Under the pieces are notes generated by a model that was not told the origin of the DNA, did no database searches, and was given only the letters and a program-made list of their open reading frames with translations. Positions 2 to 25,876 of a stretch of DNA of 31,315 nt are shown here, one piece after another. Origin of the DNA: a virus; the IMG/VR virus record IMGVR_UViG_3300017917_000364, positions 1-31,315 of that record; one strand, given 5' to 3'. How positions within the stretch are numbered: position 1 is the first letter of the stretch; each line of letters starts with the position of its first letter. A program made the translations under genes and the position numbers.

Positions 2-466
2 GAATCAGATCCTCATAGTCCGTATGACAACGGAAAACTTACTGCAAGAAAAATATTTTCTGCTTGGACAGGTTATAAGTGGCCTATTCCACAAATTCCA
101 AGCAAGTATGTTCGGGACATAATAACACAGCCGCATCATAAGTTTATTCTAAATAATTATTTTAAAATTATCTTTATAACACTAGGTATACTCTTTCTTA
201 TAAATCCAATGTTACCTCTGTACGTGTATTTTATTCCTACTGTAATGGCATTCCACGGTGTTAACATGATTAATGTTTTAGGTCACGCTCACGGATATCG
301 AAATCACGAAACAAGAGACAAGAGCACTAACAGTTGGATTGCACAGATAATAGCATTTGAAGGTTGGCACAATAATCATCACAATAAACCATATGCTTGG
401 AACATGCGAGAGAAGTGGTGGGAGATAGATCCTATGAGTTGGATAGTTAGGCTGATTAAAAAATAA
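2..466 (+). CDS. Acyl-lipid/acyl-CoA fatty acid desaturase, C-terminal part (5' end outside window)
   Basis: The frame is open from base 2 to the stop at 464-466, giving about 154 residues of an enzyme whose start lies upstream of the window. Seen: an early D-P-H-S-P-Y segment, a hydrophobic membrane stretch (about residues 50-80), a GHAHGYR histidine cluster, and near the end EGWHNNHH, the third histidine box (HxxHH) of delta-9-type desaturases that binds the di-iron centre. The tail KWWEIDP...IVRLIKK is also typical of the family. These membrane enzymes put a cis double bond into acyl chains. The stop overlaps the start of the sulfotransferase (TAATG), so the two are co-translated. Inference: remodelling of host membrane lipids during infection. 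Substrate (CoA, ACP or lipid) cannot be told. Confidence 0.88.
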   Translation, partial: ESDPHSPYDNGKLTARKIFSAWTGYKWPIPQIPSKYVRDIITQPHHKFILNNYFKIIFITLGILFLINPMLPLYVYFIPTVMAFHGVNMINVLGHAHGYRNHETRDKSTNSWIAQIIAFEGWHNNHHNKPYAWNMREKWWEIDPMSWIVRLIKK

Positions 467-1071
467 TGGGAACATTCTATATACCTGAACCAGAATTAAG
501 TTACGTACATGTACCTCGTACAGGTATGGCAATGAAAAAGATTATCAGCGATTGGTTGAAAACTAATTTCAATGTAAACGACACAGATCCTTGGATGATA
601 GATCATCCAAGTTTACAAATGGTTCGAGAGCGTATTCCAACAGGTAAGACTATGACTGTTGTTCGTAATCCGTGGCAACGTGTTTACAGCTTGTATCGTA
701 AAGTAAGCACAGAAGGCTATTGGTTAGATTGGAATGATCAAACACTTCTTGATTTAAAACCAATCAACGAATGGGTGGCCGATTATTGCAACCCGGATGT
801 TCCGTTTACTTTTCCTAGATGGTTTAATAAAACAACTAATCAGATAGACTTTATTAATTATGACGGCAATTGGGTTGACTTTATTTGTAAGGCTGAAACA
901 TTAGAGCAAGACTTTCAACAGGTAAAAGATTATCTAGGATGTAATATACCTCTGCCTGACATCAGCGGATACGATCATTGGGAATTTAAAAAATACTTTA
1001 ATGATAACAGTATAAAGGCTATAGCAAAAGTTCACGAACGTGACATTGATTATTTCAAGTACTGTGTATAA
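466..1071 (+). CDS. Sulfotransferase family protein (PAPS-dependent)
   Basis: A 201-aa protein with the two PAPS-binding signatures of sulfotransferases. VHVPRTGMAMKK (residues 15-26) corresponds to the 5'-phosphosulfate loop (usually hPKTGGTS), and VVRNPWQRVYSLYRK (about 65-79) to the 3'-phosphate-binding R-x-P-x-x-R-x-x-S motif. In the loop, Arg replaces the usual Lys and the G-T-S part is degenerate (G-M-A-M), so catalytic competence should not be taken for granted. It starts in the stop of the desaturase (TAATG) and ends convergently, overlapping the next minus-strand gene by 22 bases. Inference: sulfation of a carbohydrate or small molecule, perhaps on the virion or host surface. The acceptor is unknown. 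Confidence 0.82.
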   Translation: MGTFYIPEPELSYVHVPRTGMAMKKIISDWLKTNFNVNDTDPWMIDHPSLQMVRERIPTGKTMTVVRNPWQRVYSLYRKVSTEGYWLDWNDQTLLDLKPINEWVADYCNPDVPFTFPRWFNKTTNQIDFINYDGNWVDFICKAETLEQDFQQVKDYLGCNIPLPDISGYDHWEFKKYFNDNSIKAIAKVHERDIDYFKYCV

Positions 1072-1907
1072 CAGTAGTTTATACCTAATTGATTAAACGA
1101 GTGTAGTTTAGTACCTGCAAAGTATATACTTTTATAAAATATATCTTTGTTATATTTGTCAAAATGTATAGTTGGTAACTCATTACTTTCATTAAACACA
1201 AATACATTTTTTAATTTATGTTCAGGCCATTTAGAAATTTCTAATTTTACCTGATCAATAGTCTTTTGATCGCCTGTAATATTAAGACCATTACTTACGT
1301 TATTATAAAATACAACACCAAACTTATCAGCCGCATCCTCTATTTGGTCAATATGGATGCACATCTTTATTAACGGTTTATTAAAGTAACCAATTAACTC
1401 TGCATCTACATGATGGCAATCTCTAAATTGCATAGTGTCCATTAAGACGTCTGGATCTGTAAATTTATGTATGTAGTCTACAGTCTTATTGGTCATAGGC
1501 TGATACCATGCCAACCACTCTTGTACATCTAAAAAGTTATAAACCAATCCACGTAAAAATCCTGGATGAATTTCCCACCATCGCATTCGCCAATTCCAAA
1601 CAGCCTGAACAGGATATCGCCAGCCTACAGTTAAGTAATCACTAATTAGCCACTGTGTTTTAAAAAAATTAAAATGGCCATTATGCTTATTGTTTAGATA
1701 GTTGTGAACTTGTTCAGTAAACATACTCAACGGTGGTAACCAAACTCTATGAATCTTTCTATCTACTTTAAACAGTTGAAAGTTAAAATCAGGACCGTAG
1801 TAATCTTGACAAATTTTCCAATTGGTATGTAAATCCCATGTATCAGAAATATGATTGCCTCTAGTTGGTATTATGTGTTTACCTATAAATTTGTCGATGA
1901 TGCTCAT
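1050..1907 (-). CDS. Unknown protein, last gene of the asparagine synthetase-radical SAM-oxygenase operon
   Basis: I do not recognise this 285-aa protein. It is rich in Trp, Tyr, Phe and His, with no signal peptide and no clear membrane span. A dense aromatic segment near residues 100-125 includes WNWRMRWWEIHP, which resembles the desaturase tail WNMREKWWEIDP. A Cys-His-His cluster (RDCHHVDAE) lies near residue 165. The start ATG lies in the stop of the oxygenase gene (ATGA), so it is translationally coupled to it and probably acts in the same pathway. Its 3' end overlaps the convergent sulfotransferase gene by 22 bases. It could be a modifying enzyme or a substrate-binding partner; no family can be assigned by eye. 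Confidence 0.75.
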   Translation of the reverse strand: MSIIDKFIGKHIIPTRGNHISDTWDLHTNWKICQDYYGPDFNFQLFKVDRKIHRVWLPPLSMFTEQVHNYLNNKHNGHFNFFKTQWLISDYLTVGWRYPVQAVWNWRMRWWEIHPGFLRGLVYNFLDVQEWLAWYQPMTNKTVDYIHKFTDPDVLMDTMQFRDCHHVDAELIGYFNKPLIKMCIHIDQIEDAADKFGVVFYNNVSNGLNITGDQKTIDQVKLEISKWPEHKLKNVFVFNESNELPTIHFDKYNKDIFYKSIYFAGTKLHSFNQLGINYCYTQYLK

Positions 1908-2440
1908 AAAGAATATGTCCAGTAATTAATTTGCAAGCATCTTCTTACTGTCTTAAATGTTGTAGCAGGATAGCTGTGATATGTATCTGTGCTAGGTACA
2001 AAGAAAAAACAACGATTATCTTTGCTTTCTACTCTACTACCATCTGACAGCATTGTACCAGGGTAGAGATCTTCGTAGTCAGTGTACAGCATTGCAGTAA
2101 GACGTTTTTCTAAATGGTCGTGATGTTCGGCTAGATAAAAATCTCCGTAGTCACTTACTACTTCTAATCTAGGAAATAATCCTGTATAATCTAATCCTGT
2201 ACAAGACTCAAAAAATAGTTTATATTCGCCATCAAACAAACTTTTATATAAAGAATACAAACGGGGATATTGTTCAGCATGCTGGTCAGTGATAAACATT
2301 CTATCACTACCAGTTCGTTTACCTTGATTCAACTGAGGAACTTTGTAATCAATTGACTTTACTTCCGCAAGACATTCCTGACTTAAAAAATCATCAGTTA
2401 TCCAATGCTGCCAAGGAGAGCTAACTAAAGTTGTTTTCAT
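1904..2440 (-). CDS. 2-oxoglutarate/Fe(II)-dependent oxygenase-like protein
   Basis: A 178-aa protein with the double-stranded beta-helix signature of prolyl-4-hydroxylase-type 2OG-Fe(II) oxygenases. LAEHHDHLEKRLTAMLYT (residues 103-120) gives the HxD pair (His106/Asp108), CFFFVPSTDTYHSYPATT (about 144-161) gives the distal iron-binding His155, and Arg166 or Arg167 follows as the 2-oxoglutarate-binding arginine. Such enzymes hydroxylate or otherwise oxidise side chains, sugars or small molecules. The start overlaps the end of the radical SAM gene by 20 bases and the stop overlaps the next start (ATGA). Inference: it tailors a product of the asparagine synthetase/radical SAM operon. Substrate unknown. 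Confidence 0.75.
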   Translation of the reverse strand: MKTTLVSSPWQHWITDDFLSQECLAEVKSIDYKVPQLNQGKRTGSDRMFITDQHAEQYPRLYSLYKSLFDGEYKLFFESCTGLDYTGLFPRLEVVSDYGDFYLAEHHDHLEKRLTAMLYTDYEDLYPGTMLSDGSRVESKDNRCFFFVPSTDTYHSYPATTFKTVRRCLQINYWTYSL

Positions 2441-3230
2441 AAAATTTTACTGATTCTACTCCATAGGAGTCCCCGCCGATGTTACAGTTGTTGCATACTC
2501 CTGTGCGTTTTCCTGCTAATAGTTCTAAACGTTTCTCTTGTAAGTGATCTGTCCATATATCCCACAAGTTAGTTTTGTATATGTTGCCGTATACATTTGA
2601 CCTAGTCCAATCATTACAGCACAGCATAACATCACCGTTATGATTAATCAACATCTTGTATGCTAATAACCAACAAGGCTTTGTTTTTCCTTGTTCTATT
2701 CCGTTGCGTATTTCAATTCTATTTACTAATTCAATTTGTCCTAGGTAGCGGTTACGGATCAACCATTGCGTGGGTTTTAAATCTTCTACTAACGAGTTAG
2801 CATGCTCTACATATTTTTCTTCGTATACACTGATATTAATAACGTCAAGTCCTGCTAAAAATAAATCTTTTACTTTTTCTTTGGTTAATAATTCTCCGTT
2901 AGTAATTAGTTCTATTCTAGCATTAGTGGTTGCTAATATAGCAACGGCATCACGCAGAGGTTTATACATTGTAGGCTCACCGTATCCGCACAATACAATA
3001 CTGCCTGTGTAGTTCTTATCAATAAGTTGTTCTGCTATAGAAGAAAATAGAGTTAGTGATGCTCGCTCAGTTCTGTATTCATATTCAACTTCGCTATGCG
3101 GACAAAATTCGCATTCACGATTACATGCATCTGTTATATTAATTTCTAAATTTTTAAGAGTAGAAAACACATCAGTGACTCCTGATGTTTGTTGTATCCT
3201 GTAATCTATTTCTTTTTTAATTTTTTTCAT
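2421..3230 (-). CDS. Radical SAM protein with SPASM/Twitch-like C-terminus
   Basis: A 269-aa protein counted from the ATG at 3230; an in-frame TTG four codons upstream (3242) is possible but has no better ribosome site. The radical SAM cluster is CNRECEFC (Cys36, Cys40, Cys43; CX3CX2C) after the usual first strand LEINITDA. GYGEPT supplies the SAM-binding glycine motif. The C-terminal part fits the start of a SPASM/Twitch auxiliary-cluster domain: Cys-x12-Gly-x4-Cys (KPCWLL...NGDVMLCC) followed by CNNC. Such proteins modify peptides or anaerobically process other substrates. It overlaps both neighbours (asparagine synthetase by 14 bases, oxygenase by 20), so the set is one operon. No precursor peptide is visible nearby. 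Confidence 0.88.
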   Translation of the reverse strand: MKKIKKEIDYRIQQTSGVTDVFSTLKNLEINITDACNRECEFCPHSEVEYEYRTERASLTLFSSIAEQLIDKNYTGSIVLCGYGEPTMYKPLRDAVAILATTNARIELITNGELLTKEKVKDLFLAGLDVINISVYEEKYVEHANSLVEDLKPTQWLIRNRYLGQIELVNRIEIRNGIEQGKTKPCWLLAYKMLINHNGDVMLCCNDWTRSNVYGNIYKTNLWDIWTDHLQEKRLELLAGKRTGVCNNCNIGGDSYGVESVKFYENNFS

Positions 3231-4683
3231 AAAAACTATCAACAGCTATCTGCTTCCAATCATTGTGTCGATTGCCAGTGGATACATATTCTGGAAAACT
3301 ATCGTTGGCATGCCCAGCAAATCCCATCTTAGGATAAATTTGAGAAGTATTCCATCTATCTAGAAACATACGTCTAATTAACGGCTTTGACTCTATGCCT
3401 ACTTTGTATTCAAATGGTAAGTTCATTGCTAATTGTATCATAGGTTTAGATATAAAAGGATTTCTAGTTTCAATACCCCATGCTCCTGCAATTGAGTCCA
3501 TGCCCATAGAGTCGCAATACACTACTTGATATAAGTAATCCATTAATAATGTTGCTTGTTGCGGGTCGTTATACACGCTCATGCACTTGTCCCACAGTTT
3601 AGGATCTCCATATTCACTATAAGGACTGTGAGATTTATCTGTACTGTACTTTATAGTTTTGTAAAGTTCGTATCCGCCGTAGAGTTCGTCAGCACCTAGT
3701 CCAGTAAATAAAACTCGATCCTTACAACTTTCAGCAACAATCCATTTGCCAACATGGCTCCATGTTTGAGCTGGCAGTTTAGTTCGTTGAAGTAGAGACA
3801 TATACTTACGTCTCCATTCTATAGTATCTACTTTAACTGTAGTTAACCTATTACTCTCGTCCTCTGTTAAAAATTTCTGTACATTAGAAACAATCGGATC
3901 TTTTCCTATAATATCTACAGCACACAAATTTAAATTAGGTATAGAATTTAATATAATATTGCTATCAAGTCCGCCAGAATAACTAAGTGATGCACTACAA
4001 CTAGGAATCATATGACTTATAACATCGTTCCAAGTTGATTTAAAATGACTATATGCTTCGTCTATATCGCTATAATTTGTTTTTGAATGCCAATTAAAAA
4101 TACTATCGATTACTGCAACTTCTGTTGAATCTTTATACAGAATACCGGGTTTAATTTTAGTTATACCCTTCCACGGTGTTTGTTCTTCTATAGTCCAGCA
4201 TTTGTTTTTATAAGGAATATCTATTTTTACAGCATCTATGTATTCTAAAATAGGACTAATTTCTGAACAGACTATTAAAATGTTGTCATCTATATATCTA
4301 TATAATGTCTTTTCGCCTTGTGGATCACTTGCATATAATACTGTATCCTTGTTAGCATATGCCCAAGCCCAAGTTCCCCAGCTATCTTTTAAATTAGATA
4401 AACAGTTTTCTACAGCATCATGAACAAATTCGATGTCATTATTATTGTATCCAAACTTACTAGCATTATATATTTCACCATTATATGCTAAAAAGTTTTT
4501 GTGTTCGCAATTATAATAATCATCATTGCCTGTTATATGCAGTACAGTTTGTCCAATAAAGATATTATTCTCATGACGATATCTATCAAAGTCAGGACCC
4601 CTGCTTTTTAATATGTTAAATGCTTTTAGATGCTTATCTATTGCAATGTTATCTTTGCTTTTAACTAATAGAATACCGCACAT
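3217..4683 (-). CDS. asnB: Asparagine synthetase (glutamine-hydrolysing), AsnB type
   Basis: A 488-aa two-domain enzyme. The N-terminal class II glutamine amidotransferase domain starts with the nucleophile Cys2 (MCGILL) and has RGPD (28-31) and YNGEIYN (67-73). The synthetase domain has the PP-loop SYSGGLDSN (234-242) and FTGLGADELYGGYELY (about 326-341). The family moves glutamine nitrogen to an ATP-activated carboxylate; free-standing AsnB makes asparagine, while relatives amidate cell-surface or natural-product acids. It is shorter than typical AsnB (about 550-630 aa). It is first in a four-gene minus-strand operon with radical SAM and 2OG oxygenase, and a late-like octamer lies 27 bases upstream of its ATG. 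The context argues for a special biosynthetic role rather than bulk asparagine supply. Confidence 0.92.
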   Translation of the reverse strand: MCGILLVKSKDNIAIDKHLKAFNILKSRGPDFDRYRHENNIFIGQTVLHITGNDDYYNCEHKNFLAYNGEIYNASKFGYNNNDIEFVHDAVENCLSNLKDSWGTWAWAYANKDTVLYASDPQGEKTLYRYIDDNILIVCSEISPILEYIDAVKIDIPYKNKCWTIEEQTPWKGITKIKPGILYKDSTEVAVIDSIFNWHSKTNYSDIDEAYSHFKSTWNDVISHMIPSCSASLSYSGGLDSNIILNSIPNLNLCAVDIIGKDPIVSNVQKFLTEDESNRLTTVKVDTIEWRRKYMSLLQRTKLPAQTWSHVGKWIVAESCKDRVLFTGLGADELYGGYELYKTIKYSTDKSHSPYSEYGDPKLWDKCMSVYNDPQQATLLMDYLYQVVYCDSMGMDSIAGAWGIETRNPFISKPMIQLAMNLPFEYKVGIESKPLIRRMFLDRWNTSQIYPKMGFAGHANDSFPEYVSTGNRHNDWKQIAVDSFYEKN

Positions 4684-4755: not shown

Positions 4756-5463
4756 GTGATAGATTTATTAAAAGAAAAGATTGAAGGCTGGAGCAGAGAC
4801 AAACTGATTGCGTATAACGACAACCATTTTGTACCATTCTTACCTAAAAAAAGTACATTTATTCAAGAAATGTTTGACGACGGGCTATGCGTATACAACG
4901 AACACTCTGCACGATTTTATTTTAATAACGGTGATATCAGTTCTGTTACTGATAAATTTTCTCACAATGATTGGATGTACTACGAATTACTTTATAATAA
5001 TCGTGGCACATTTAGAATGGCCAAGCCAGTTGAATGTAAAGTGTTAACTGTTGCAGGGAATGAAAGTCTATATCTTAAATTTTCAAGTCCTTCTGGACAA
5101 CTGGGCATGCCTGTCTATGCACTTAAAGATACAACTGAACTTTATAAGTTATATATAGATTATGTTACGTGGGTTATTGAAATCTTAGATAGTCACGGTG
5201 ATCAATTTCCAGACGATGCAATTAGCCCTATCAAAATAGTTAAAGACGAACAAGGCTTTTACTTTTGTCCAATAGCAGGTGCAGAAAATTTTTCATTCAA
5301 TAGAACCAAAGACGAGTTTATTAAAGATCAAATGGGTCGACTTATGCTAGTGTCTCACAGCGTTAATCCTGATGATACACAAAATGAAACTGACTGGAAT
5401 TATCTTAAAGAGTACGCAAAGACTAAATGGTATGCGTTTAAAACAGCAAGGAATAATAAATGA
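4756..5463 (+). CDS. Unknown 235-aa protein
   Basis: Not recognised. The start is GTG, with an AAGAGA-type ribosome site 6 bases upstream and an in-frame reading of M-I-D-L-L-K. The protein is soluble, rich in Tyr, Phe, Asn and Asp, with no signal peptide or membrane span and no obvious catalytic motif. It is one of only four plus-strand genes in the window and is expressed away from the asnB operon. The next gene starts inside its stop codon (ATGA at 5460), so the two products are made together. Its position between the accessory operon and the tail fibre suggests an accessory or host-interaction role, which is inference only. Confidence 0.7.
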   Translation: MIDLLKEKIEGWSRDKLIAYNDNHFVPFLPKKSTFIQEMFDDGLCVYNEHSARFYFNNGDISSVTDKFSHNDWMYYELLYNNRGTFRMAKPVECKVLTVAGNESLYLKFSSPSGQLGMPVYALKDTTELYKLYIDYVTWVIEILDSHGDQFPDDAISPIKIVKDEQGFYFCPIAGAENFSFNRTKDEFIKDQMGRLMLVSHSVNPDDTQNETDWNYLKEYAKTKWYAFKTARNNK

Positions 5464-5747
5464 AAACGATGAAAGATTTAGAAGTAGATTATGTAATCTA
5501 CATGGATGATAATACTACACGATCATTTAAAGGCAACGTATGGACCTTTCAAGAAACGCTTCGTTTAATATTTGGACCGGGATCTCATGCAACACATATG
5601 ATTGCTAAATGGGATAACAGAGAAGAAAAAATAGTAGACCCTGTAAATTGGGAAAATCCAACATGCTGTAGCACTTGCAAACAACAGGCAGAATATGCTA
5701 AGACTGCCATGGAAGAACATTCATCCTTCCATGATCATACGCATTAA
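5460..5747 (+). CDS. Unknown small Cys/His-rich protein, possible metal binder
   Basis: A 95-aa protein translationally coupled to the upstream gene by ATGA. The first 60 residues look like a small alpha/beta domain (YVIYMDDNTTRSFKGNVW). Then comes CCSTC (near residue 69) and the protein ends in a His-rich tail, HSSFHDHTH. Cys-x-x-Cys plus five terminal-region histidines suggests metal binding (zinc, copper or nickel), but no family is recognised. The stop directly abuts the convergent tail-fibre stop (5747/5748) with no terminator visible between them. Confidence 0.68.
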   Translation: MKTMKDLEVDYVIYMDDNTTRSFKGNVWTFQETLRLIFGPGSHATHMIAKWDNREEKIVDPVNWENPTCCSTCKQQAEYAKTAMEEHSSFHDHTH

Positions 5748-7091
5748 TTAGAATGCTTCCCAAGTACTACCGTTAAAGAATACAGGCTTGTTTGAAACAG
5801 TAGGAGCAGTTCCTGAAGTCATATATACCATCATGCCTGCACTTGGAGTAGGAATTGCCGCGCTACGTGCCGCATCGTCTGCGTATACAGGTAATTGATG
5901 CGGAGCAGTAGATGTTTGAATATCACCCCATCCTTGAGTTGGATGAAACGTTGTAAGTTTGTTAAGTGTAGTGTCATACACAATCATACCTTTAACAAAC
6001 TCTTCACCTACACCAATTCCGCCGTACTTATTAATAATTGTAGTTTTTTGTGTAGTAGTTAAACCATACGACTGTAGTGCCAAACTAGTAAACAATCCAC
6101 TACCGTCTAATTGTGCAAAAGTATCATAGCCGCCGTTGTCACCAAGTACGAACATAGTAATTGTACCTGGAAGAGCTTCTGTACCTGTAGTACCAACTGA
6201 AGCACCAATAGAAATACCACCTAGTGTTGAATAACTAGAACCATTCCAACCGGCACCAGTATAACTAGTAACTTTATCAGCTAACTGAATTGTTAAAGGA
6301 GATTCTGTTGTGCCTCTTGAAGTTTGGAAAATAATTCCAGGTGCAGATCCTGTATTAGGATTTGCGCTATTATGAATTACTCGTACATCCTTACCATTGA
6401 AGTCAACGCTTAGGTCAAAGTTAAACTCAATAGCTGATGCATTTATATTATTACCTACAAGGGTTATTAATCCTGTGCTTAGGCTGTTATTCAGCCCGTC
6501 GACGAGTGTAGTCGAATCGTCACCAAATACTGATCCAACTAAGTTACCTTCAATGGAGTCTGCAACAACAACAGATGCATTAACAGTATCAGTTTCGGCA
6601 TCCCACAGAACATTATTACTGTCTGCAGAACCGCTGTTGATTTTAATTATTTGAGAACCAACTGCAAGAGTTGTGTCTACGTTAACTTGTGTAGCCCAAA
6701 CGTTAGACCACTGCTTGCTTACAGTACCTAAACTAAATGAGTCGTCTACTGACGGAGTTAGTGACGAGCTAATTAACCCGCCTACATTGATATTGTCTTC
6801 TGTACCGTTACCTAAATTAATACTTCCTGTGGCAGTTATTGTGCCTGTAATATTGATATTACCGGTTCCTGTAATATCTCTACCGTTTAAATCTAAGTTT
6901 CCGCCTAGTTGTGGCGTAGTGTCGCTTACTAGATCATATAATGACGCATCTACAGGTCCAACAAGAATCCCGCCTACTGTGGCTCCGTCGCCTACGTAAA
7001 CTTTTTTGGTGTCAGTTACATATAAGAGTTCGCCTTGTTCTGGCGTAATAACTCGCTGTGCTTCTGTGCCTCGTCTTAATTTCAAAGCCAT
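5748..7091 (-). CDS. Tail fibre / receptor-binding-like structural protein
   Basis: A 447-aa protein with a classic phage fibre N-terminus. MALKLRRGTEAQRV...GELLYVTDTKKVYVGDGATVGG (residues 1-42) matches the Mtd-N/fibre-attachment module seen in many tail fibres. The middle is a repetitive beta-rich stretch with T-G-T-G-N-I-N-I-T-G-T-I-T-A-T-G-type repeats and SFSLGTVSKQWSNVWATQVNV, typical of fibre shafts and intramolecular chaperone-like cores. The C-terminus (PSAGMMVYMTSGTAPTV...FFNGSTWEAF) looks like the tip seen in related marine phages. It has its own late promoter and a strong ribosome site (AGGAG). Expected location: the virion tail, contacting the host surface. Receptor unknown. Confidence 0.85.
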   Translation of the reverse strand: MALKLRRGTEAQRVITPEQGELLYVTDTKKVYVGDGATVGGILVGPVDASLYDLVSDTTPQLGGNLDLNGRDITGTGNINITGTITATGSINLGNGTEDNINVGGLISSSLTPSVDDSFSLGTVSKQWSNVWATQVNVDTTLAVGSQIIKINSGSADSNNVLWDAETDTVNASVVVADSIEGNLVGSVFGDDSTTLVDGLNNSLSTGLITLVGNNINASAIEFNFDLSVDFNGKDVRVIHNSANPNTGSAPGIIFQTSRGTTESPLTIQLADKVTSYTGAGWNGSSYSTLGGISIGASVGTTGTEALPGTITMFVLGDNGGYDTFAQLDGSGLFTSLALQSYGLTTTQKTTIINKYGGIGVGEEFVKGMIVYDTTLNKLTTFHPTQGWGDIQTSTAPHQLPVYADDAARSAAIPTPSAGMMVYMTSGTAPTVSNKPVFFNGSTWEAF

Positions 7092-7121
7092 GTAAATACT
7101 CCTGGTAACAATATCATATAG

Positions 7122-7129
7122 TATTTATG
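7122..7129 (-). promoter_or_regulatory. T4-type late promoter for the tail fibre gene
   Basis: Minus strand reads CATAAATA followed by CT (ATAAATACT core), one mismatch from the T4 late consensus TATAAATA. It lies about 31 bases before the fibre ATG, with AGGAG between. This is the clearest late element in the window and fits a virion gene. Confidence 0.7.
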
Positions 7130-7145
7130 CCTTTGAACAAAAGAC

Positions 7146-7463
7146 TTACTTGTTCTTTTTTAAGAACAGTTTTGTTCGAGCTTGTATATCACGCTTAATG
7201 CGATCAGTATCCAGCCTAAAATCCACGTTTACAATGTATTCGTCATACTCTTGAAACATCTGTTCAAGCACAGTTTCTAGATCTGTAGCTGGATGCTTTA
7301 CTTTAGACTTTTCTATGTCTATGTCCCATACTTTTCCGTCCCTAAAACTAACCCTAACGGAGTGCAAGTAATCTATGGGTACTGCTTCTACTCTAACGTC
7401 TTGAAATACTTCGGGCCAATGTGCTATGACATCTTTAGGTAGTACTGTTGATTTCTTAGGCAC
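7146..7463 (-). CDS. Conserved phage protein of unknown function
   Basis: A 105-aa soluble protein starting with GTG inside the end of the upstream gene (8-base overlap). It has a basic N-terminus (MPKKSTVLPKD), a beta-rich middle (HSVRVSFRDGKVWDIDIEKS) and a helical, basic C-terminus ending KLFLKKNK. No catalytic motif seen. It is the last gene before the tail-fibre promoter, in a run of small conserved genes (7456-8617) resembling T4-like marine phage genes. A structural or assembly role is possible but not shown. Confidence 0.72.
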   Translation of the reverse strand: MPKKSTVLPKDVIAHWPEVFQDVRVEAVPIDYLHSVRVSFRDGKVWDIDIEKSKVKHPATDLETVLEQMFQEYDEYIVNVDFRLDTDRIKRDIQARTKLFLKKNK

Positions 7464-8067
7464 TTTCGGTAGATTTTTTCTTAGTAGGCGCTAGTTTTTC
7501 AGCTTCTTCTCTTAGGCGTTTTGCTTCTTTATACAGCCTATCAGCATCGCTACGATACTTAGCCGCAATTTCTTCGTCTGTAAGAACGCTGTCTGACGGA
7601 GCAGCCAATGTCTGTGCTGTAGCTAATTCTGTTACTTCAACAGCACTTGTATCAGCTTTTTTCTCTGTTGGCTGTGTAGAATTACCTTTAAGGGCCAAGT
7701 CTTCAATGCTTACACCTTTTTGCTGAGCAATAGCTTGATTTAATTCACTGAGCAAAATAACGGTTTTCATATCAGGAGTCATCTCAACTAGGTTAGTTGG
7801 CATCTTTACCATCTTACCTGTTACGTGAAATGAAGCTAACATGTTACGTCCATCGGGTAATACAGCACGAGCCATTGCTTCTGAAAACTCGTATGCAGTC
7901 TGTCCGGCATTTGATTCTACTAACTTCATTAGTGTATCGTGCTCGTCAGCCATTAAATTTTCTGTTGTAACAACAATACATTGTTCAGGCTCGTTTGGTA
8001 CTGTTCTATATGCTACTACAACTTTTCGTTGATTGGTCTTTACTCGACCTATGTGTTTTAGGGCCAT
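7456..8067 (-). CDS. Conserved T4-like marine phage protein, unknown function
   Basis: A 203-aa protein. I start it at the ATG at 8067 (MALKHIGRVKTNQRK) because AAGGAG lies just upstream and it follows the stop of the preceding gene by one base; a longer frame exists but overlaps that gene. The N-terminal two thirds is a compact domain (KVVVAYRTVPNEPEQCIVVTT, then SNAGQTAYEFSEAMARAVLPDGRNML). The C-terminal 60 residues are a charged Lys/Glu/Ala coiled-coil-like tail. From memory, similar proteins occur in T4-like cyanophages without assigned function. Likely co-transcribed with 8069-8617. Confidence 0.78.
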   Translation of the reverse strand: MALKHIGRVKTNQRKVVVAYRTVPNEPEQCIVVTTENLMADEHDTLMKLVESNAGQTAYEFSEAMARAVLPDGRNMLASFHVTGKMVKMPTNLVEMTPDMKTVILLSELNQAIAQQKGVSIEDLALKGNSTQPTEKKADTSAVEVTELATAQTLAAPSDSVLTDEEIAAKYRSDADRLYKEAKRLREEAEKLAPTKKKSTESA

Positions 8068-8068
8068 A

Positions 8069-8302
8069 TTATTCTCCTTCGCGTTTTGGTTGCTGTGCGG
8101 CAACTGCGGCTAAAAATGCTTCTAATTTATTGTACGTTTGTCCTACAACTACCATTTCGCTAGGCTTAAAAGTACCACGTTGGCTAGCAACGTCAATGAT
8201 TTGTTTTAGGGCGTTAAGATCCTGAACAGTAAGCTCTGCACTTGGTTGTGCAGGTGCTTGCGGCTGTGCAGTTTCTTTTTGTACCTTTTGTTCTTCACTC
8301 AT
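8069..8302 (-). CDS. Small conserved phage protein, unknown function
   Basis: A 77-aa protein with AAGGAG just upstream of its ATG. The first 25 residues are Gln/Pro/Ala-rich and likely disordered. The rest is helical (LTVQDLNALKQIIDVASQRGTFKPSEMVVVGQTYNKLEAFLAA), and the end is charged. No motif with a known function. It is separated by only one base from the next gene's start, so the two are coupled. Confidence 0.75.
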   Translation of the reverse strand: MSEEQKVQKETAQPQAPAQPSAELTVQDLNALKQIIDVASQRGTFKPSEMVVVGQTYNKLEAFLAAVAAQQPKREGE

Positions 8303-8338
8303 TTACATCTCCTTAATAAAGTGCGCTGATAATATTTA

Positions 8339-8617
8339 CTAGTATTTCAAATAGGGACATGCCAAAGTGAAATAGGAAAGTTCTTTGTGATCTTCAAATC
8401 CTATTTTAAGTAGTGTAACTATTTGATTAGCGGAGTCTACTTCTACAGTTTTTCCTACGTAGAATCTGCCCTTTTGGTGATCTATAATCCACTTTGCTAT
8501 ACTGTCCTGTAGGTTATAAATCATGGGAATAGAGACATACTCAAAGTGCTCAGGCGGCACTTTGAGCTGTCTTAGTTCGAAAAAGTTTAATGGATTTGGC
8601 TCTCTAAGTTTAACCAT
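8339..8617 (-). CDS. Conserved phage protein, unknown function
   Basis: A 92-aa protein whose ATG overlaps the stop of the VWA-peptidase gene (TAATG). It contains NPLNFFELRQLKVPPEHFEY, WIIDHQKGRFYVGKTVEV and a C-terminal ELSYFTLACPYLKY. It is soluble and appears to be a small alpha/beta domain. No enzyme motif is visible. It is co-transcribed with the peptidase gene, so it may serve the same function, but that is inference. Confidence 0.74.
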   Translation of the reverse strand: MVKLREPNPLNFFELRQLKVPPEHFEYVSIPMIYNLQDSIAKWIIDHQKGRFYVGKTVEVDSANQIVTLLKIGFEDHKELSYFTLACPYLKY

Positions 8618-9891
8618 TACTTATCGTAGTGTGCAGTCATACCAAACGGTGCCTGCAAGTTTTTATCATGGTGTCCGTGGACAATAAAGATAGTGTCACA
8701 GTAGTCATCTTCGCCCCAGCTATCCCAAGGATAACCGTCAGTAAACATGATGAACTTCTTGGGCTGGATATCATGGTCTCGCATGTATCTCCAGTTCGCC
8801 ATAAAGTCTGTACCACCACCGCCCATAATTTCGTATTCGAGCAAGTCTGTACCTGTATCGGCAGTAAAGTCCTGTTCGTTATATACCTTTGTATCAAAGC
8901 ACCAAAGTTTAATTTGGTAATCCTTGTACTCGTCCATAATACCCTTGATCTCGCTCAAGAAGTCCTTAGCTTGATCGTCTCCAATAGAACCTGACATGTC
9001 CAAACTGATAGCGATGTCAATAGTTTCATCGTAGTTCTGCCCGGGCAGTACTGCACCAGTATGCCAACCCTTGCGTGAAGGACGAGCAAAGGTAAAGTCG
9101 TGTTTAATAGTACTTTGGATCTGCTGACGCAGAAGCTCACGCCAATTCATCTTTGGCTCAGTAAGCTCTTTGATCATGCGACTAATTTCGCCCGGAGTGT
9201 TGCCTGCGCCAGCCGCTTGTGCCGCTTGAAGCATACCTTCCTTGATCTCGTCGCGGATCTTTTGCATCTCGTCTTTAGAGTACTTTGGACGACCCTTACC
9301 ATTCTTACCTTCATCCTTGCCGTCACCTTCTTCAAGGTCCAAGTGTTCGTCCAAAAGTTGGCCTAGCTTTTCAAGAGCTTCTTTACCATTCTTTTGTGCT
9401 TGTTTGAACAGTTCTTCGTAGACTTCTTCAGAGGTCCAACCGTTGTACTTTGGATCCTTAAAGCAGTCTACAAGTGTAGGCTCAACACCGATACGGTCCC
9501 GGATCAGCAGGTTGTTAACAATATAGTCCTGTGCAATGTTAGACAGCACTGGGTCCATGTTGCGATCCTGCCAAGTGCGGCGTCCAAGATGGTCAAACAC
9601 ACAGTGAAGGATCTCGTGTGCAATAACAAACTCGATCTCCTTGTTGGACATCGCATTAAAGAATTGAGTATTAAAAAATAGGTTGCGTCCGTCTACTGCG
9701 GCAGTAGGCAACCAATCATCTGCGGCTTGAATACGCAGACGTGTAGCCATGTTACCAAAAAACGGATGACGCAATAGCAAGCCAACTCGAGCAACAATAA
9801 TGCGATCGAGTACATCCTTGCGCATATCTGCGAGTTTTTCTGGAGTAATATTTGGGTCAGGTGCCCATTGTTGTTTACCTGCTACGCTCAT
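8617..9891 (-). CDS. VWA-domain protein with metallopeptidase-like HExxH motif (CoxE/VWA_2-like)
   Basis: A 424-aa two-part protein. The N-terminal domain has FVIAHEILHCVFDHLGRR with zinc-peptidase motif HEILH at 92-96. A charged Gly/Lys/Glu-rich linker lies near 190-220. The C-terminal von Willebrand A domain has a complete MIDAS: DMSGSIG (about 293-299), GGGGTDF (about 358) and FTDGYPW (about 385). VWA proteins of this type work with MoxR-type AAA ATPases to remodel or mature protein complexes, and a MoxR gene lies directly upstream. It has its own strong sigma70 promoter and an AGGAG ribosome site. Whether it cleaves peptides is untested, and its target in infection is unknown. Confidence 0.87.
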   Translation of the reverse strand: MSVAGKQQWAPDPNITPEKLADMRKDVLDRIIVARVGLLLRHPFFGNMATRLRIQAADDWLPTAAVDGRNLFFNTQFFNAMSNKEIEFVIAHEILHCVFDHLGRRTWQDRNMDPVLSNIAQDYIVNNLLIRDRIGVEPTLVDCFKDPKYNGWTSEEVYEELFKQAQKNGKEALEKLGQLLDEHLDLEEGDGKDEGKNGKGRPKYSKDEMQKIRDEIKEGMLQAAQAAGAGNTPGEISRMIKELTEPKMNWRELLRQQIQSTIKHDFTFARPSRKGWHTGAVLPGQNYDETIDIAISLDMSGSIGDDQAKDFLSEIKGIMDEYKDYQIKLWCFDTKVYNEQDFTADTGTDLLEYEIMGGGGTDFMANWRYMRDHDIQPKKFIMFTDGYPWDSWGEDDYCDTIFIVHGHHDKNLQAPFGMTAHYDK

Positions 9892-14058: not shown

Positions 14059-14289
14059 TTACTCCTTGTATGCAGGGTTTGGTATAGTTAATTTAAAAAT
14101 GTGATACTTTGCTTTTTCTTCTTTGAGAATCTCTATGGTTCTTTGGTGTTCCGCTTCACGTTCGGTTAGAAAGAAACCTGTACCTAAAGAAGAAGTTCCA
14201 GTAGTGTAACCAGTAGGCATCAGCATCAAATCGCTTTGCTTTAATAGCATGTAAACATCGAACGTCTTAGGTACAGATATTGATTCCAT
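14059..14289 (-). CDS. Small conserved phage protein, unknown function
   Basis: A 76-aa protein. I choose the ATG at 14289 because it overlaps the QueE stop (TAATG) and has GGGGAA upstream; an ATG 12 bases earlier lacks a ribosome site. It reads SVPKTFDVYMLLKQSDLMLMPTGYTT then FFLTEREAEHQRTIEILKE, a small alpha/beta fold. It is coupled to QueE, but nothing in it points to 7-deazaguanine chemistry. Confidence 0.7.
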   Translation of the reverse strand: MESISVPKTFDVYMLLKQSDLMLMPTGYTTGTSSLGTGFFLTEREAEHQRTIEILKEEKAKYHIFKLTIPNPAYKE

Positions 14290-15167
14290 TAGGTTCCCCA
14301 TTCGTTTTTAAATAACGGCACTTGCAACCTGTCACTGTAGCGTAAACCTGCTTTCATTGCTAATTCTGCTACTCGACGATTGTTCAATGCGTAAACACTT
14401 TCTACGCCACCTACAGGCATTAGATACACATTGCCTTTAAATCCTGCGCTTCTGTATTCTTTGACAGCACGTTCAGCATCGGCAAAGTCTTGTTCTGTAG
14501 CAACAACAAACTTAAGATAGGTATGTCCAACTTGTTCGTAATCGCATACTACATCTGGACGAATAGCTTCTTCCCACTTTTCACCTGAACATGGTAATTT
14601 AGCACTAACTGAAAATGTTAATGCTTCGTAACCTCTTCTGCCACCTGGAGTTCCTCTAGGATTAAGAGTCCAGTCTAACAAGTAGTGTCTAAATTCTTTT
14701 GAAAGTTCTTGAGTACCGTTAGTTTCAAAAGTAATTTCTTTAAGGCCTGCCATCTTGGGATGATTCAGTAAATCTGGATAAGCACGTTGCCAGCCCAGTA
14801 AAGGTTCACCGCCTGTGATAACAAGGTGCTCATCACGCCATTCGTTAAAAGGAAGTATTTCCATAGTGCGTTCTACAACAGCGTCTGTTGTAAGCATTGG
14901 ACTTAGATCCTTAAATGAAGGATGCCAACTTGCGTAACTGTCGCAACCTGTGCTAACTAGTGGAAGATCTTCGTAGCGTTTAAACGGAGTAGCTTCGTGA
15001 ACTAGAGCTAGTTGTTCGGCTTCTGAGCTTACAGTACCACGTTCCATACCAAATCCTGCGCACTTGAAGTTACAACCAAATGTACGCAAGAAAACAGAAG
15101 GCACACCCATAAAGCGGCCTTCTCCTTGTATGCTATAAAATAATTCTGCTATTTTTAGTTTACTCAT
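14289..15167 (-). CDS. queE: 7-carboxy-7-deazaguanine (CDG) synthase, radical SAM QueE
   Basis: A 292-aa QueE-type enzyme. It converts 6-carboxytetrahydropterin, the QueD product, to CDG with SAM and a [4Fe-4S] cluster. Seen: ELFYSIQGEGRFMGVPSVFLR (about 8-28) with the family's SIQGEG, the first cluster cysteines in CNFKC (Cys32, Cys36), GCDSYASW (Cys75) aligning with the usual WCDTKYAW, and TGGEP (118-122). The third cysteine is displaced by a 38-residue insertion, so the motif is CX3CX38C rather than CX3CX2C, and the protein is longer than common bacterial QueE (about 210-245 aa). Coupled on both sides (ATGA, TAATG). Together with folE, a queD-like gene and dpdA it points to 7-deazaguanine DNA modification. 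Confidence 0.9.
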   Translation of the reverse strand: MSKLKIAELFYSIQGEGRFMGVPSVFLRTFGCNFKCAGFGMERGTVSSEAEQLALVHEATPFKRYEDLPLVSTGCDSYASWHPSFKDLSPMLTTDAVVERTMEILPFNEWRDEHLVITGGEPLLGWQRAYPDLLNHPKMAGLKEITFETNGTQELSKEFRHYLLDWTLNPRGTPGGRRGYEALTFSVSAKLPCSGEKWEEAIRPDVVCDYEQVGHTYLKFVVATEQDFADAERAVKEYRSAGFKGNVYLMPVGGVESVYALNNRRVAELAMKAGLRYSDRLQVPLFKNEWGT

Positions 15168-15857: not shown

Positions 15858-16069
15858 ACACGATCCTTTAACCATAAGTCAACTTGTGCTTCTGCTTCTT
15901 CTTGTGTAACAGCATAAGCATAGATCCAATAACAGTCGTCTTTGCCTTTGATGTCAAACGGAACTGGCCCGTTAAACAAAATGCCATCTTCTAGCATACG
16001 TTTAACTTCAAACTTTTTTAGATTTTTAGCACGATTAATTAAATCGTTAGCCATGTCTATTGAATTCAT
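15854..16069 (-). CDS. Small phage protein, unknown function
   Basis: A 71-aa protein sandwiched between folE and the acidic protein, with ATGA overlaps at both ends. N-terminal helix (IDMANDLINRAKNLKKFEVK), a beta hairpin around GPVPFDIKGKDDCYWIYAYA, and a C-terminal helix (EEAEAQVDLWLKDRV). No known motif. It is expressed with folE from the promoter at 16932-16960. Confidence 0.7.
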   Translation of the reverse strand: MNSIDMANDLINRAKNLKKFEVKRMLEDGILFNGPVPFDIKGKDDCYWIYAYAVTQEEAEAQVDLWLKDRV

Positions 16070-16890
16070 CTTGGAGCAAACTCCTGTTGTAGTTTAATAT
16101 TGTCAAAAAACTCTTTCTTAGTATTGCCGTCTTCTTTAAAAGCACCTTTCAATACTGTAGTTTGAGTCAATGAGCTATGTGCCATGATGCCTCGATTTTC
16201 ACAGCATCCGTGTACTGCTTGAATATAAACACCTAGGTCTTTTGCGCCTGTGGCACGTTCGATTTCCCTAGCAATGTCATTAGCAAGTTCCTCCTGGAGA
16301 GTGCCACGTCGGGCACACCATTGGGCAATCCTTGTGTACTTTGAGAGTCCAATAAGTTTCTGAGCGGCAATAATGCCAATATAAGCAACGCCACTAACGG
16401 GTTGGTGATGATGGCTACACATACTACGCAACTCGCTACGAACAACCAACATACCTTCGTAGCGGTCCTCCGAATCATTTGGAAATGCTGTTGCGTCTGG
16501 TGCTGGTTCATAACGTCCTGCCATTATTTCGTTAAAGTACATTTTAGCAAGACGACGTGCTGTGCCTTTGCTATTAGGATCGTTTTCACGATCGATTAGT
16601 AGACGATCTAGAACAATTTCAAATGCTTCTGTTGCCTCGTCAATTAGTTTAGCTTTATCTTCTTCAGTAACATACTCACTGATGTTGTCGCCTGCCCAGA
16701 AACGTTTATTGTCACGCTTCATTTTAAAGCGAAGTACATCTGCTAGATATGCTTCTTCGTAGCCTTTGTCAGACATTGCATCTGCGGCTTTGACGAATAC
16801 TTCTTTTTGTAAAGGAACATATTCGTCCTGTTTAAATTCCTGATTAACAGTTGCGTTAATAACAGGATCTGGTTTAAATTCTGTTTTCAA
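16066..16890 (-). CDS. folE: GTP cyclohydrolase I (FolE)
   Basis: A 274-aa FolE, which turns GTP into 7,8-dihydroneopterin triphosphate, the first step toward tetrahydrofolate and 7-deazaguanines. Zinc and active-site residues are visible: RSMCSHHHQPVSG (Cys158, His160, His161) and VHGCCENRGIMAH (Cys229/230), with a LIGLSKYTRI segment typical of the family. It is longer than E. coli FolE (222 aa) because of an N-terminal extension of roughly 70 residues. It starts with TTG, 6 bases after GGAGAA. A perfect-consensus sigma70 promoter and a 5'-terminal hairpin lie upstream. First gene of the run that carries queE, so a role in DNA 7-deazaguanine synthesis fits best. Confidence 0.92.
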   Translation of the reverse strand: MKTEFKPDPVINATVNQEFKQDEYVPLQKEVFVKAADAMSDKGYEEAYLADVLRFKMKRDNKRFWAGDNISEYVTEEDKAKLIDEATEAFEIVLDRLLIDRENDPNSKGTARRLAKMYFNEIMAGRYEPAPDATAFPNDSEDRYEGMLVVRSELRSMCSHHHQPVSGVAYIGIIAAQKLIGLSKYTRIAQWCARRGTLQEELANDIAREIERATGAKDLGVYIQAVHGCCENRGIMAHSSLTQTTVLKGAFKEDGNTKKEFFDNIKLQQEFAPR

Positions 16891-17949: not shown

Positions 17950-18489
17950 TTAATGCTCCCAAGGATAAACTAACCAAACATCTTCTTCTGCTTTGTTTAC
18001 TTCTTTAGCATAATAGCTAACATCGTCAAATGTAGAACTTAGATTATTAGTTAACACAGCAAAGCGAACATTCTTGCCCCACACGCTGTTCCATGCAGTT
18101 TCTTCATTCGGCAAACATCCGCCTTGCCAATCTTTCTTGATCCAATTAAATGTAGCACCAGTGTCATTAATATCGTCGATGATTAAGATATTCTTTTTGT
18201 ATGAAGAATCCCAACGGCTTTTAATAGTTTCTTGATCTTCTGTCGGAACATAACCAAACGCATCTTCGGCCATACCCAGATCACTTACACATTGTCCGCC
18301 ATCACGGAGACTAACTTCTAAAGGACGCATAGGAATACCTGTTAGGTGACTTAGAATCACAGCAGGTATAACACCACCTCTAGTAATGCCAACAATATAA
18401 TCAGGACGCCAGTTATCCTTGTACATCTGCATACTAATGCTTACACACATTTCTTGTATATGCACCCAAGAGTAGTAGTGTTTCTTCAT
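17950..18489 (-). CDS. Purine-type phosphoribosyltransferase
   Basis: A 179-aa PRTase. RPDYIVGITRGGVIPAVILS (28-47) forms the PPi loop and first strand, and ILIIDDINDTGAT (101-113) is the PRPP-binding motif. The fold and length match hypoxanthine/xanthine-guanine phosphoribosyltransferases, which salvage bases to nucleotides using PRPP. Coupled to the upstream gene (ATGA). Near genes for 7-deazaguanine synthesis, it might act on guanine or a deazaguanine base, but that is speculation; ordinary purine salvage is the safer reading. Confidence 0.85.
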   Translation of the reverse strand: MKKHYYSWVHIQEMCVSISMQMYKDNWRPDYIVGITRGGVIPAVILSHLTGIPMRPLEVSLRDGGQCVSDLGMAEDAFGYVPTEDQETIKSRWDSSYKKNILIIDDINDTGATFNWIKKDWQGGCLPNEETAWNSVWGKNVRFAVLTNNLSSTFDDVSYYAKEVNKAEEDVWLVYPWEH

Positions 18490-25150: not shown

Positions 25151-25876
25151 TTACAGTATAATGTCTAAGCCTTTATTAGTCAAGAACTCTTTGACATTGT
25201 ATTTAGGTTTAAAGCCTAATTCTTTCAAAATTTCTATATTAGCCTGTGTACACTTTCTTTCGTGTACTTTATTTAGACGGAGTGGCTTACCTGGCGCAAG
25301 TTCTTGAATGTTTACACTTTCACCTGTACCAACGTCAACTACACCGTTTATGTTTGGATTTTTAATCAATAACTCAATAGCTTCGCAAAGATCTTCTATG
25401 TGAATAAAATCTCTAGAATGATCAGTGACATACTCTACTGAATTTGATAACAACTTATCTAAGAACATTCCTTTTCTAGGGGCATCTGAATATACAGTAT
25501 GGAATCTCATGCCAACACTATTGCTAGGAGCCATCATGTCCATGATATATTTGGATGCCGCATACGGATTCAGCGTTGGTTCATATGCTGAACTTGAACT
25601 TGCGTACAGTATACGAGCTTCGTTGAACTGTTCAAAAATTCTACGTGACCCTTCAACATTAACATGCCAATATGGGCCAGGAAGTCTCATACTTTCTCTA
25701 ACTCCGCTTTTACCTGCAAGATGTATTACTAGATCAACTTCGTAGGTTAAATTGCAGGTGAGAATGTCCTTACCGTCTTTTAAATCTATACCATACATAG
25801 TATAACCTCTATCCCACAAATATGGGTAGAGATGACTACCAATAAAACCTTTATGGCCTGTCATTAAAATACGCAT
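25151..25876 (-). CDS. NAD-dependent epimerase/dehydratase (SDR family)
   Basis: A 241-aa extended-SDR enzyme, shorter than the usual 300-340. It has the Rossmann motif TGHKGFIG (6-13), HLAGKSGVRES (52-62), active-site SSSAY (93-98) and Y-x-x-x-K as PYAASKY (104-110). Such enzymes epimerise or dehydrate nucleotide sugars, for example UDP-galactose or dTDP-glucose. It lies between polymerase and clamp genes, coupled to a 36-aa gene (TAATG). With the glycosyltransferase, it could supply an activated sugar for virion or DNA modification. Substrate unknown. Confidence 0.85.
   Translation of the reverse strand: MRILMTGHKGFIGSHLYPYLWDRGYTMYGIDLKDGKDILTCNLTYEVDLVIHLAGKSGVRESMRLPGPYWHVNVEGSRRIFEQFNEARILYASSSSAYEPTLNPYAASKYIMDMMAPSNSVGMRFHTVYSDAPRKGMFLDKLLSNSVEYVTDHSRDFIHIEDLCEAIELLIKNPNINGVVDVGTGESVNIQELAPGKPLRLNKVHERKCTQANIEILKELGFKPKYNVKEFLTNKGLDIIL
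25155..25183 (-). promoter_or_regulatory. Sigma70 promoter for the sliding clamp gene
   Basis: Minus strand -35 TTGACT (25178-25183) and -10 TATACT (25155-25160), spacer 17. It lies at the very end of the epimerase gene and about 27 bases before the clamp start, allowing clamp expression independent of the polymerase. Confidence 0.75.

Follow-up and report, generated by a model that had tools for sequence, protein, structure and literature searches.

What would a phage make with an amidotransferase, a radical enzyme, a hydroxylase and a protein of no recognized family encoded side by side? This question is raised by the viral DNA of record IMGVR_UViG_3300017917_000364 (IMG/VR; positions 1 to 31,315), analysed over its whole length of 31,315 nucleotides and hereafter called the window. 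The operon and its neighbours are listed below, with identities given, where available, to a related locus, L101.

2..466, plus strand: fatty-acid-desaturase-like protein, truncated by the contig end (PF00487, E 6e-8)
466..1071, plus strand: sulfotransferase-like protein of 201 aa, convergent neighbour of the operon (PF03567, E 0.001, below the cut-off; phrog_3347, galactose-3-O-sulfotransferase, E 1.5e-4)
1050..1907, minus strand: orphan protein of 285 aa without a family match, whose homologues are oxygenase-adjacent
1904..2440, minus strand: 2OG-Fe(II) oxygenase of 178 aa, conserved partner of AsnB (PF13640, E 0.006)
2421..3230, minus strand: BtrN-like radical SAM enzyme of 269 aa with a twitch-type C-terminal domain (Radical_SAM, E 1e-14; SPASM, E 2e-10)
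3217..4683, minus strand: AsnB-like class II glutamine amidotransferase/PP-loop ligase of 488 aa, first gene of the operon (PF00733, E 1e-13; GATase_7, E 1e-6)
4756..5463, plus strand: divergent neighbour of 235 aa (34% identity to its L101 homologue)
5460..5747, plus strand: neighbour of 95 aa (45% identity to its L101 homologue)
5748..7091, minus strand: tail-fibre-like protein of 447 aa with an Mtd_N domain (PF18454, E 5e-11), with a weak homologue at the same place in L101

The four minus-strand ORFs were confirmed, and the head-to-tail arrangement given in the preliminary description is borne out by their coordinates, with overlaps of 14 nt (AsnB/radical SAM), 20 nt (radical SAM/oxygenase) and 4 nt (oxygenase/orphan). 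The ATG at position 3230 was taken as the start of the radical SAM gene, the TTG at 3242 reported by the ORF lister being a longer alternative. The late-like promoter formerly placed in front of the operon found no support: the motif TATAAATA is absent from the window (0 occurrences, where a mononucleotide shuffle predicts about 4.6), and [TC]TAAATA, with 11 copies, one of them 33 bp upstream of AsnB, falls short of the expected number of about 20, so that a T4-like late promoter is not supported.

The enzymes carry the catalytic residues of their families. In the AsnB family (alignment A1 with added rows), the glutaminase residues Cys2, R28 (the putative equivalent of E. coli Arg49), Asn68-Gly69-Glu70 and Asp83 are invariant, as are those of the ATP site, i.e. 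S236, G238 and D240 of the PP-loop (SGGxDS), D332 and E333 of the D-E motif, and K433. The radical SAM protein has a CxxxCxxC motif (C35, C39, C42) and four further cysteines (C185, C203, C245 and C248; alignment numbering), all conserved with loci L095 and L101, and its nearest solved structure is BtrN (4m7t, E 1e-16). Since four cysteines suffice for one auxiliary cluster, its earlier designation as a radical SAM/SPASM enzyme holds with respect to the domain matches, but the protein is of the twitch type (BtrN-like) and not a full two-cluster SPASM enzyme. The Pfam match of the oxygenase to 2OG-FeII_Oxy_3 is weak (17.9 bits against a gathering threshold of 27); the iron/2-oxoglutarate residues HxD (H106, D108), H155 and R166 are invariant in seven homologues (alignment A2), and a profile match to a putative hydroxylase structure was obtained (9blq, E 0.001). 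The orphan had no match in Pfam, PHROG or NCBIfam, its PDB profile matches were unconvincing (best E 0.009), and its single-sequence AlphaFold model (pLDDT 33) was unusable. Its homologues adjoin the oxygenase in L101 (47% identity), L095 and L118 (37%) and L114 (26%), and it constitutes a defined new protein family for further work.

Homologues of the oxygenase were found at 52 IMG/VR loci, 35 of them distinct, and in 22 of these 35 the oxygenase gene adjoins AsnB. In relatives, this pair is accompanied by genes for a glycosyltransferase-like protein (c1) and a ParB_N-like protein. The latter occupies the same slot after the oxygenase as the orphan; a relationship between the two was sought by hhalign, hmmsearch and Pfam on the trimmed core, all with negative results. 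Back-translated scans of viral contigs with single-protein queries (AsnB or the orphan) gave no matches, the loci having been found with a motif pattern and an alignment scan, and the phage records searched contained one AsnB match (23%). The order radical SAM-oxygenase-orphan, without AsnB, occurs in two other lineages. One such locus, L101, shares with the window the sulfotransferase-like (64% identity), desaturase-like (52%) and tail-fibre-like neighbours of the cassette; desaturase-like homologues also lie near some AsnB loci. The L101 and L095 records, which may be fragments, lack AsnB, so it does not appear to be obligatory for the other three genes. The oxygenase tree does not separate the window copy as nearer to either the AsnB type or the radical SAM-orphan type. 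The co-occurrence of all four genes in related phages, on which the preliminary description had staked its proposal, was thus recovered in two overlapping parts, while the complete foursome was encountered, among the loci found, in the window only; a literature search found no paper describing this four-gene cassette. The grouping of these genes is not due to chance, since both partial orders are kept elsewhere, and the families, motifs and recurring gene order support the earlier suggestion of an enzymatic tailoring set combining amidation, radical chemistry and hydroxylation. They also define a phage-specific AsnB branch, linked to a 2OG oxygenase and to glycosyltransferases, that is widespread in uncultured jumbo phages.

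The window is syntenic with jumbo phages of 343-364 kb (DNA polymerase 64-65% identical in G008, G009, G010 and G012), and in G008, G009 and G010 the AsnB-oxygenase pair is located at the corresponding place, between c1 genes. The larger relative records contain 9-15 c1 homologues each. The AlphaFold model of c1 (pLDDT 91) has its best PDB matches among GT-B enzymes (SdgB 7vfl, E 5e-4, probability 1.00; a fucosyltransferase; SenB), and with moderate TM-scores (about 0.4) c1 is predicted to be a GT-B-fold glycosyltransferase-like protein. UDP-glucose/GDP-mannose dehydrogenase, an enzyme type that makes sugar carboxylates (uronate-forming), scored above the Pfam cut-off in 5 of nine records, and in G011 it is encoded within about 13 kb of AsnB, together with C-methyltransferase and epimerase genes. 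CTP_transf_3 (CMP-sugar synthetase type) was not found in the nine records. The window itself contains no c1 or ParB_N-like gene, which is not decisive, as only 1 kb of contig remains beyond the operon. The nearest cellular relative of the AsnB-like protein (28% identity), from a SAR11 single cell, is encoded directly next to a PhyH 2OG oxygenase (PF05721, E 7e-23) within what looks like a surface-polysaccharide gene cluster.

On balance, we lean towards the view that this aquatic jumbo phage uses the operon to tailor glycans, and that the cassette occupies a variable locus beside the gene for a tail-fibre-like protein. It is most likely that sugars of the host surface or of the phage particle are modified, rather than asparagine or a drug-like compound made. 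Of the products considered earlier, decoration of a host glycan or of the virion is favoured by the glycosyltransferases flanking the AsnB-oxygenase pair in relatives and the nucleotide-sugar dehydrogenases in the same genomes. For the substrates, order of steps, final target and benefit we infer the following scheme: (i) with ATP and with ammonia drawn from glutamine, the AsnB-like enzyme would amidate the carboxylate of a sugar (a uronic acid or a related one), as WbpS-type enzymes do; (ii) the BtrN-like enzyme would abstract a hydrogen atom and oxidise a hydroxyl group of a sugar or cyclitol by two electrons; (iii) the oxygenase would hydroxylate the same sugar or its carrier; and (iv) glycosyltransferases encoded elsewhere in the genome would attach the product to virion proteins or to a glycan on the surface of the infected host. 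The sulfotransferase encoded next door may add sulfate, and the likely benefit would be blocked superinfection or altered adsorption. More tentatively, and with a rather modest chance of being right, the cassette could represent a phage pathway to a previously unknown sugar (AsnB-amidated, 2OG-hydroxylated and BtrN-like-oxidised), in which case the orphan would represent a new family responsible for carrying, recognising or transferring this sugar. If the glycan-tailoring reading is true, these phages rebuild sugars by uronamide formation, radical alcohol oxidation and hydroxylation, chemistries generally associated with bacterial pathways for O-antigens or antibiotics, and this would bear on the defence of large phages against competitors and on host-surface change.

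Phage base modification employs glycosyltransferases, oxygenases and radical SAM enzymes. In a rival reading, DNA hypermodification, a base or nucleotide would be the substrate of both the oxygenase and the radical enzyme, with AsnB turning a carboxylate on the base into an amide and glycosyltransferases capping the product. 7-Deazaguanine-type genes (QueE-like and GTP cyclohydrolase I) are indeed present in the window, and a QueE-like gene in relatives. However, these genes are separate from the operon, the oxygenase match is of the 2OG-FeII_Oxy_3 and not of the Tet_JBP type, and the nearest cellular AsnB lies in the polysaccharide-like cluster, so that this explanation is unlikely. The search of the nine records for Tet_JBP was silent, as were its controls, and is uninformative.

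Modification of virion proteins is also improbable. It would have the oxygenase hydroxylate tail-fibre residues, 2OG-FeII_Oxy_3 taking in prolyl-hydroxylase-type enzymes, while the tail-fibre-like protein encoded next to the cassette would have side chains altered by AsnB and the radical enzyme; the Mtd_N gene and small genes do adjoin the cassette both in the window and in L101. Nevertheless, AsnB-type substrates are mostly small acids, and in most relatives the AsnB-oxygenase pair lies between glycosyltransferase-like genes with no recognised tail fibre alongside.

Ordinary metabolism, with AsnB supplying asparagine during infection and the remaining genes being unrelated passengers, would suit the intact glutaminase and ATP sites and the best curated match, the asparagine synthase model TIGR01536. 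However, the score of this match (116.5 bits) is below half of the cut-off (267.1), and the site of E. coli Glu348 (alignment to asparagine synthetase 1ct9) is Leu329 in the window protein and is replaced in 44 of 44 family members (L in 23, V in 10, I in 7, Q in 2, C in 1 and A in 1); bacterial AsnB relatives gathered for comparison have E or D there in 58 of 63 cases. The motif pattern fixed this site as a mostly aliphatic codon, and the loci found with it are biased there, but those found via the oxygenase alignment scan, free of this bias, also lack Glu. This loss argues, by analogy only, against asparagine synthesis, a literature search having found no paper to cite on Glu348, and the coupling of AsnB to oxygenase and glycosyltransferase-like genes is conserved. 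The enzyme probably does something other than ordinary asparagine production, and this explanation is very unlikely.

Least credible is a peptide or other natural product, in which AsnB would act as a lasso-type cyclase, with the radical enzyme and oxygenase as tailoring enzymes and the compound released: peptide maturation often uses radical SAM/SPASM enzymes, and lasso-cyclase model matches occur in 21 of 21 aligned AsnB members, but they are weak (best E 1.6e-13; 32 bits against a cut-off of 525 for the window member), the closest match of the radical enzyme is the cyclitol oxidase BtrN and not a peptide maturase, glycosyltransferase-like genes accompany the AsnB-oxygenase pair, and no leader peptidase, precursor or exporter was recognised among ORFs of at least 30 aa and neighbours, where short precursors are easily missed. 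The released compound from a stand-alone cluster that had been suggested at first is accordingly disfavoured, no precursor or release gene having been recognised.

Among known systems, E. coli asparagine synthetase B (1ct9) shares with the phage AsnB the domain order, glutaminase residues and PP-loop, but not Glu348 or a score above the curated asparagine-synthase cut-off. BtrN (2-deoxy-scyllo-inosamine dehydrogenase), a twitch enzyme that oxidises an aminocyclitol alcohol (PMC9012708), likewise belongs to the radical SAM enzymes and has a single auxiliary cluster with four cysteines; it is part of an antibiotic pathway, and the phage enzyme is likened to it by sequence and cysteines. Closest to the proposed amidation are the AsnB-like enzymes of bacterial glycan loci that turn a uronic acid into an amide: PGN_1234/WbpS, for which deletion evidence indicates that a sugar uronamide is made (PMC7468200), and likewise WbpS of H. 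pullorum (PMC6025236). The phage counterpart would amidate by analogy; the bacterial enzymes are related by the paper to TIGR03108, of which the window AsnB is a distant relative (39.7 bits against a cut-off of 817), and whereas glycosyltransferase-like genes flank AsnB in relatives, the window has only the sulfotransferase-like gene nearby. The host-recognition cassettes of pelagimyophages (PMC7029224) belong to another phage lineage, with no AsnB-oxygenase pair described in the consulted portion of that paper; it does report a hypervariable region in which tail fibres and glycosyltransferases are found together with LPS-type sugar genes, UDP-glucose dehydrogenase among them, and with radical SAM cassettes. 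Finally, for the capsular polysaccharide modification clusters of jumbo (cyano)phages (PMC7824862), the term amidotransferase is not used in the paper, whose consulted portion describes neither an AsnB-oxygenase pair nor a BtrN-like/orphan extension, and glycosyltransferases surround the pair in relatives and not in the window, where the contig is cut 1 kb beyond the operon. These clusters nevertheless likewise unite, within a single variable region, paralogous glycosyltransferases with sugar-nucleotide enzymes and 2OG-Fe(II) oxygenases, and they have been proposed to decorate the capsule or make metabolites.

The preliminary description placed four overlapping genes on the minus strand of the window, and this arrangement is borne out by the coordinates, with successive overlaps of 14, 20 and 4 nt. 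The genes are:

3217-4683, minus strand, AsnB-like protein
2421-3230, minus strand, radical SAM protein (BtrN-like)
1904-2440, minus strand, 2OG oxygenase
1050-1907, minus strand, orphan protein of 285 aa

The side toward which this operon reads carries a sulfotransferase-like gene in convergent orientation and a truncated desaturase-like gene, while two divergent genes without assigned function and a tail-fibre-like gene containing Mtd_N lie on the opposite side. The source record is a virus fragment of 31.3 kb, and the contig ends 1 kb past the operon. A T4-like late promoter for these genes found no support in the window. The sequence TATAAATA has 0 occurrences on both strands of the whole window (approximately 4.6 are expected from base composition alone).

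A contig scan with a codon pattern for the AsnB motif GLGADELYGG matched 67 contigs, most of them with proteins scoring >130 bits against the window AsnB. Among phage records a single AsnB match was obtained (Synechococcus phage S-SCSM2R, 23% identity), and the best of the bacterial matches showed 28% identity. The glutaminase and ATP residues are all retained within the family. In E. coli AsnB, Glu348 is required for aspartate activation. The corresponding site is occupied by L, V, I, Q, C or A in the AsnB-like family (n = 44) and by E or D in 58 of the 63 bacterial relatives gathered. As this residue is replaced and the window AsnB scores less than half of the cut-off of the asparagine-synthase model, the protein was not classified as an asparagine synthetase. 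Together, the AsnB-like proteins make up a phage family.

The oxygenase alignment was used for an analogous contig scan, which matched 52 contigs, and merging of the loci at 95% identity left 35. AsnB adjoins the oxygenase in 22 of these, a gene of the glycosyltransferase-like family c1 accompanies it in 27 and a ParB_N-like gene in 28. The oxygenase is a partner of AsnB. The radical SAM, oxygenase and orphan genes, in the order seen in the window, were found in two loci, L095 (with its near-copy L118) and L101; AsnB was not found in the records of these loci (44-69 kb). Neighbours common to L101 and the window are sulfotransferase-like, desaturase-like, 235-aa, 95-aa and tail-fibre-like proteins. 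In another locus, L114, the orphan homologue adjoins the oxygenase on the opposite strand. Since the AsnB-oxygenase pair and the radical SAM-oxygenase-orphan trio each recur elsewhere, the window unites two recurring sets; what held of the suggested four-gene cluster in other contigs is its two parts, the trio occurring without AsnB in L095/L118 and L101. Around the oxygenase and orphan homologues of L114 there are also several more radical-SAM-looking ORFs and a PP-loop-looking ORF (1355-2350, 5075-6175 and 6781-8797).

Proteins of PA5oct-like jumbo phages are 36% identical to one window protein, and the window DNA polymerase shares 64-65% identity with those of records of 349, 343, 364, 135 and 110 kb. 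Several genes lying between the polymerase and AsnB are collinear between the window and its relatives. Three related viral records (G008, G009 and G010) have, at the equivalent position, a c1 gene, AsnB, the oxygenase, the ParB_N-like gene (on the reverse strand) and a second c1 gene. For a fourth record, G012, the order c1 then AsnB was seen in locus L028, a stretch other than the one compared here.

These surroundings bear on the reading that we favour, phage glycan tailoring. The c1 family gave no match in Pfam or PHROG, and its predicted model (pLDDT 91) matches GT-B glycosyltransferases, which makes it a putative member of that fold; the larger jumbo records carry 9-15 c1 homologues each. 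A UDP-glucose/GDP-mannose dehydrogenase scored above the cut-off in 5 of 9 records, its identity being backed by the central domain in the proteins scanned. In the related record G011 this dehydrogenase occurs with C-methyltransferase, epimerase and QueE-like genes, all approximately 13 kb or less from AsnB. The nearest cellular AsnB, on a SAR11 single-cell contig, adjoins a PhyH 2OG oxygenase, and several of its neighbours, judged from their opening residues, are read as probable surface-polysaccharide genes; the single sulfotransferase of this contig that was tested was not significant.

Further genes of possible relevance were noted in the window and its relatives. Locus L222 (5986-8637; 203985-206639 of the G008 record) encodes a nucleotide-sugar dehydrogenase and then an Asp/Asn-hydroxylase-like oxygenase, followed directly or after one gene by a protein that by eye resembles an amidinotransferase (no Pfam match). 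The order of these genes is kept in G009 and G012, and an ORF similar to the amidinotransferase-looking protein lies upstream of the trio in L095. The window itself encodes an NAD-dependent sugar epimerase/dehydratase-like protein (25151-25876; PF01370, E 4e-23), whose gene follows immediately downstream of that for the DNA polymerase, and a phosphoribosyltransferase-domain protein (17950-18489; PF00156, E 3e-8), similar in length to a phosphoribosyltransferase-looking ORF of the G011 sugar cluster (L225; record 39368-39904).

The main rivals to glycan tailoring are DNA hypermodification and virion-protein modification. The former is favoured by the presence of QueE-like and GTP cyclohydrolase genes in the window phage, which suggests a 7-deazaguanine DNA or RNA modification pathway. 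The QueE-like radical SAM protein is encoded at 14289-15167 and GTP cyclohydrolase I at 16066-16890, and QueE-like genes were found in relatives of the window too.

Under glycan tailoring, AsnB would carry out an amidation, the BtrN-like enzyme would oxidize a sugar alcohol and the oxygenase would hydroxylate, before a final transfer of the product; we infer the substrate, step order and target of the cassette. Precedents exist in WbpS/PGN_1234 for AsnB amidation chemistry (PMC7468200, PMC6025236) and in BtrN for radical SAM alcohol oxidation (PMC9012708). Modification of host polysaccharide has already been proposed for jumbo cyanophages and pelagimyophages, the enzymes involved including glycosyltransferases, oxygenases and sugar dehydrogenases among others (PMC7824862, PMC7029224).
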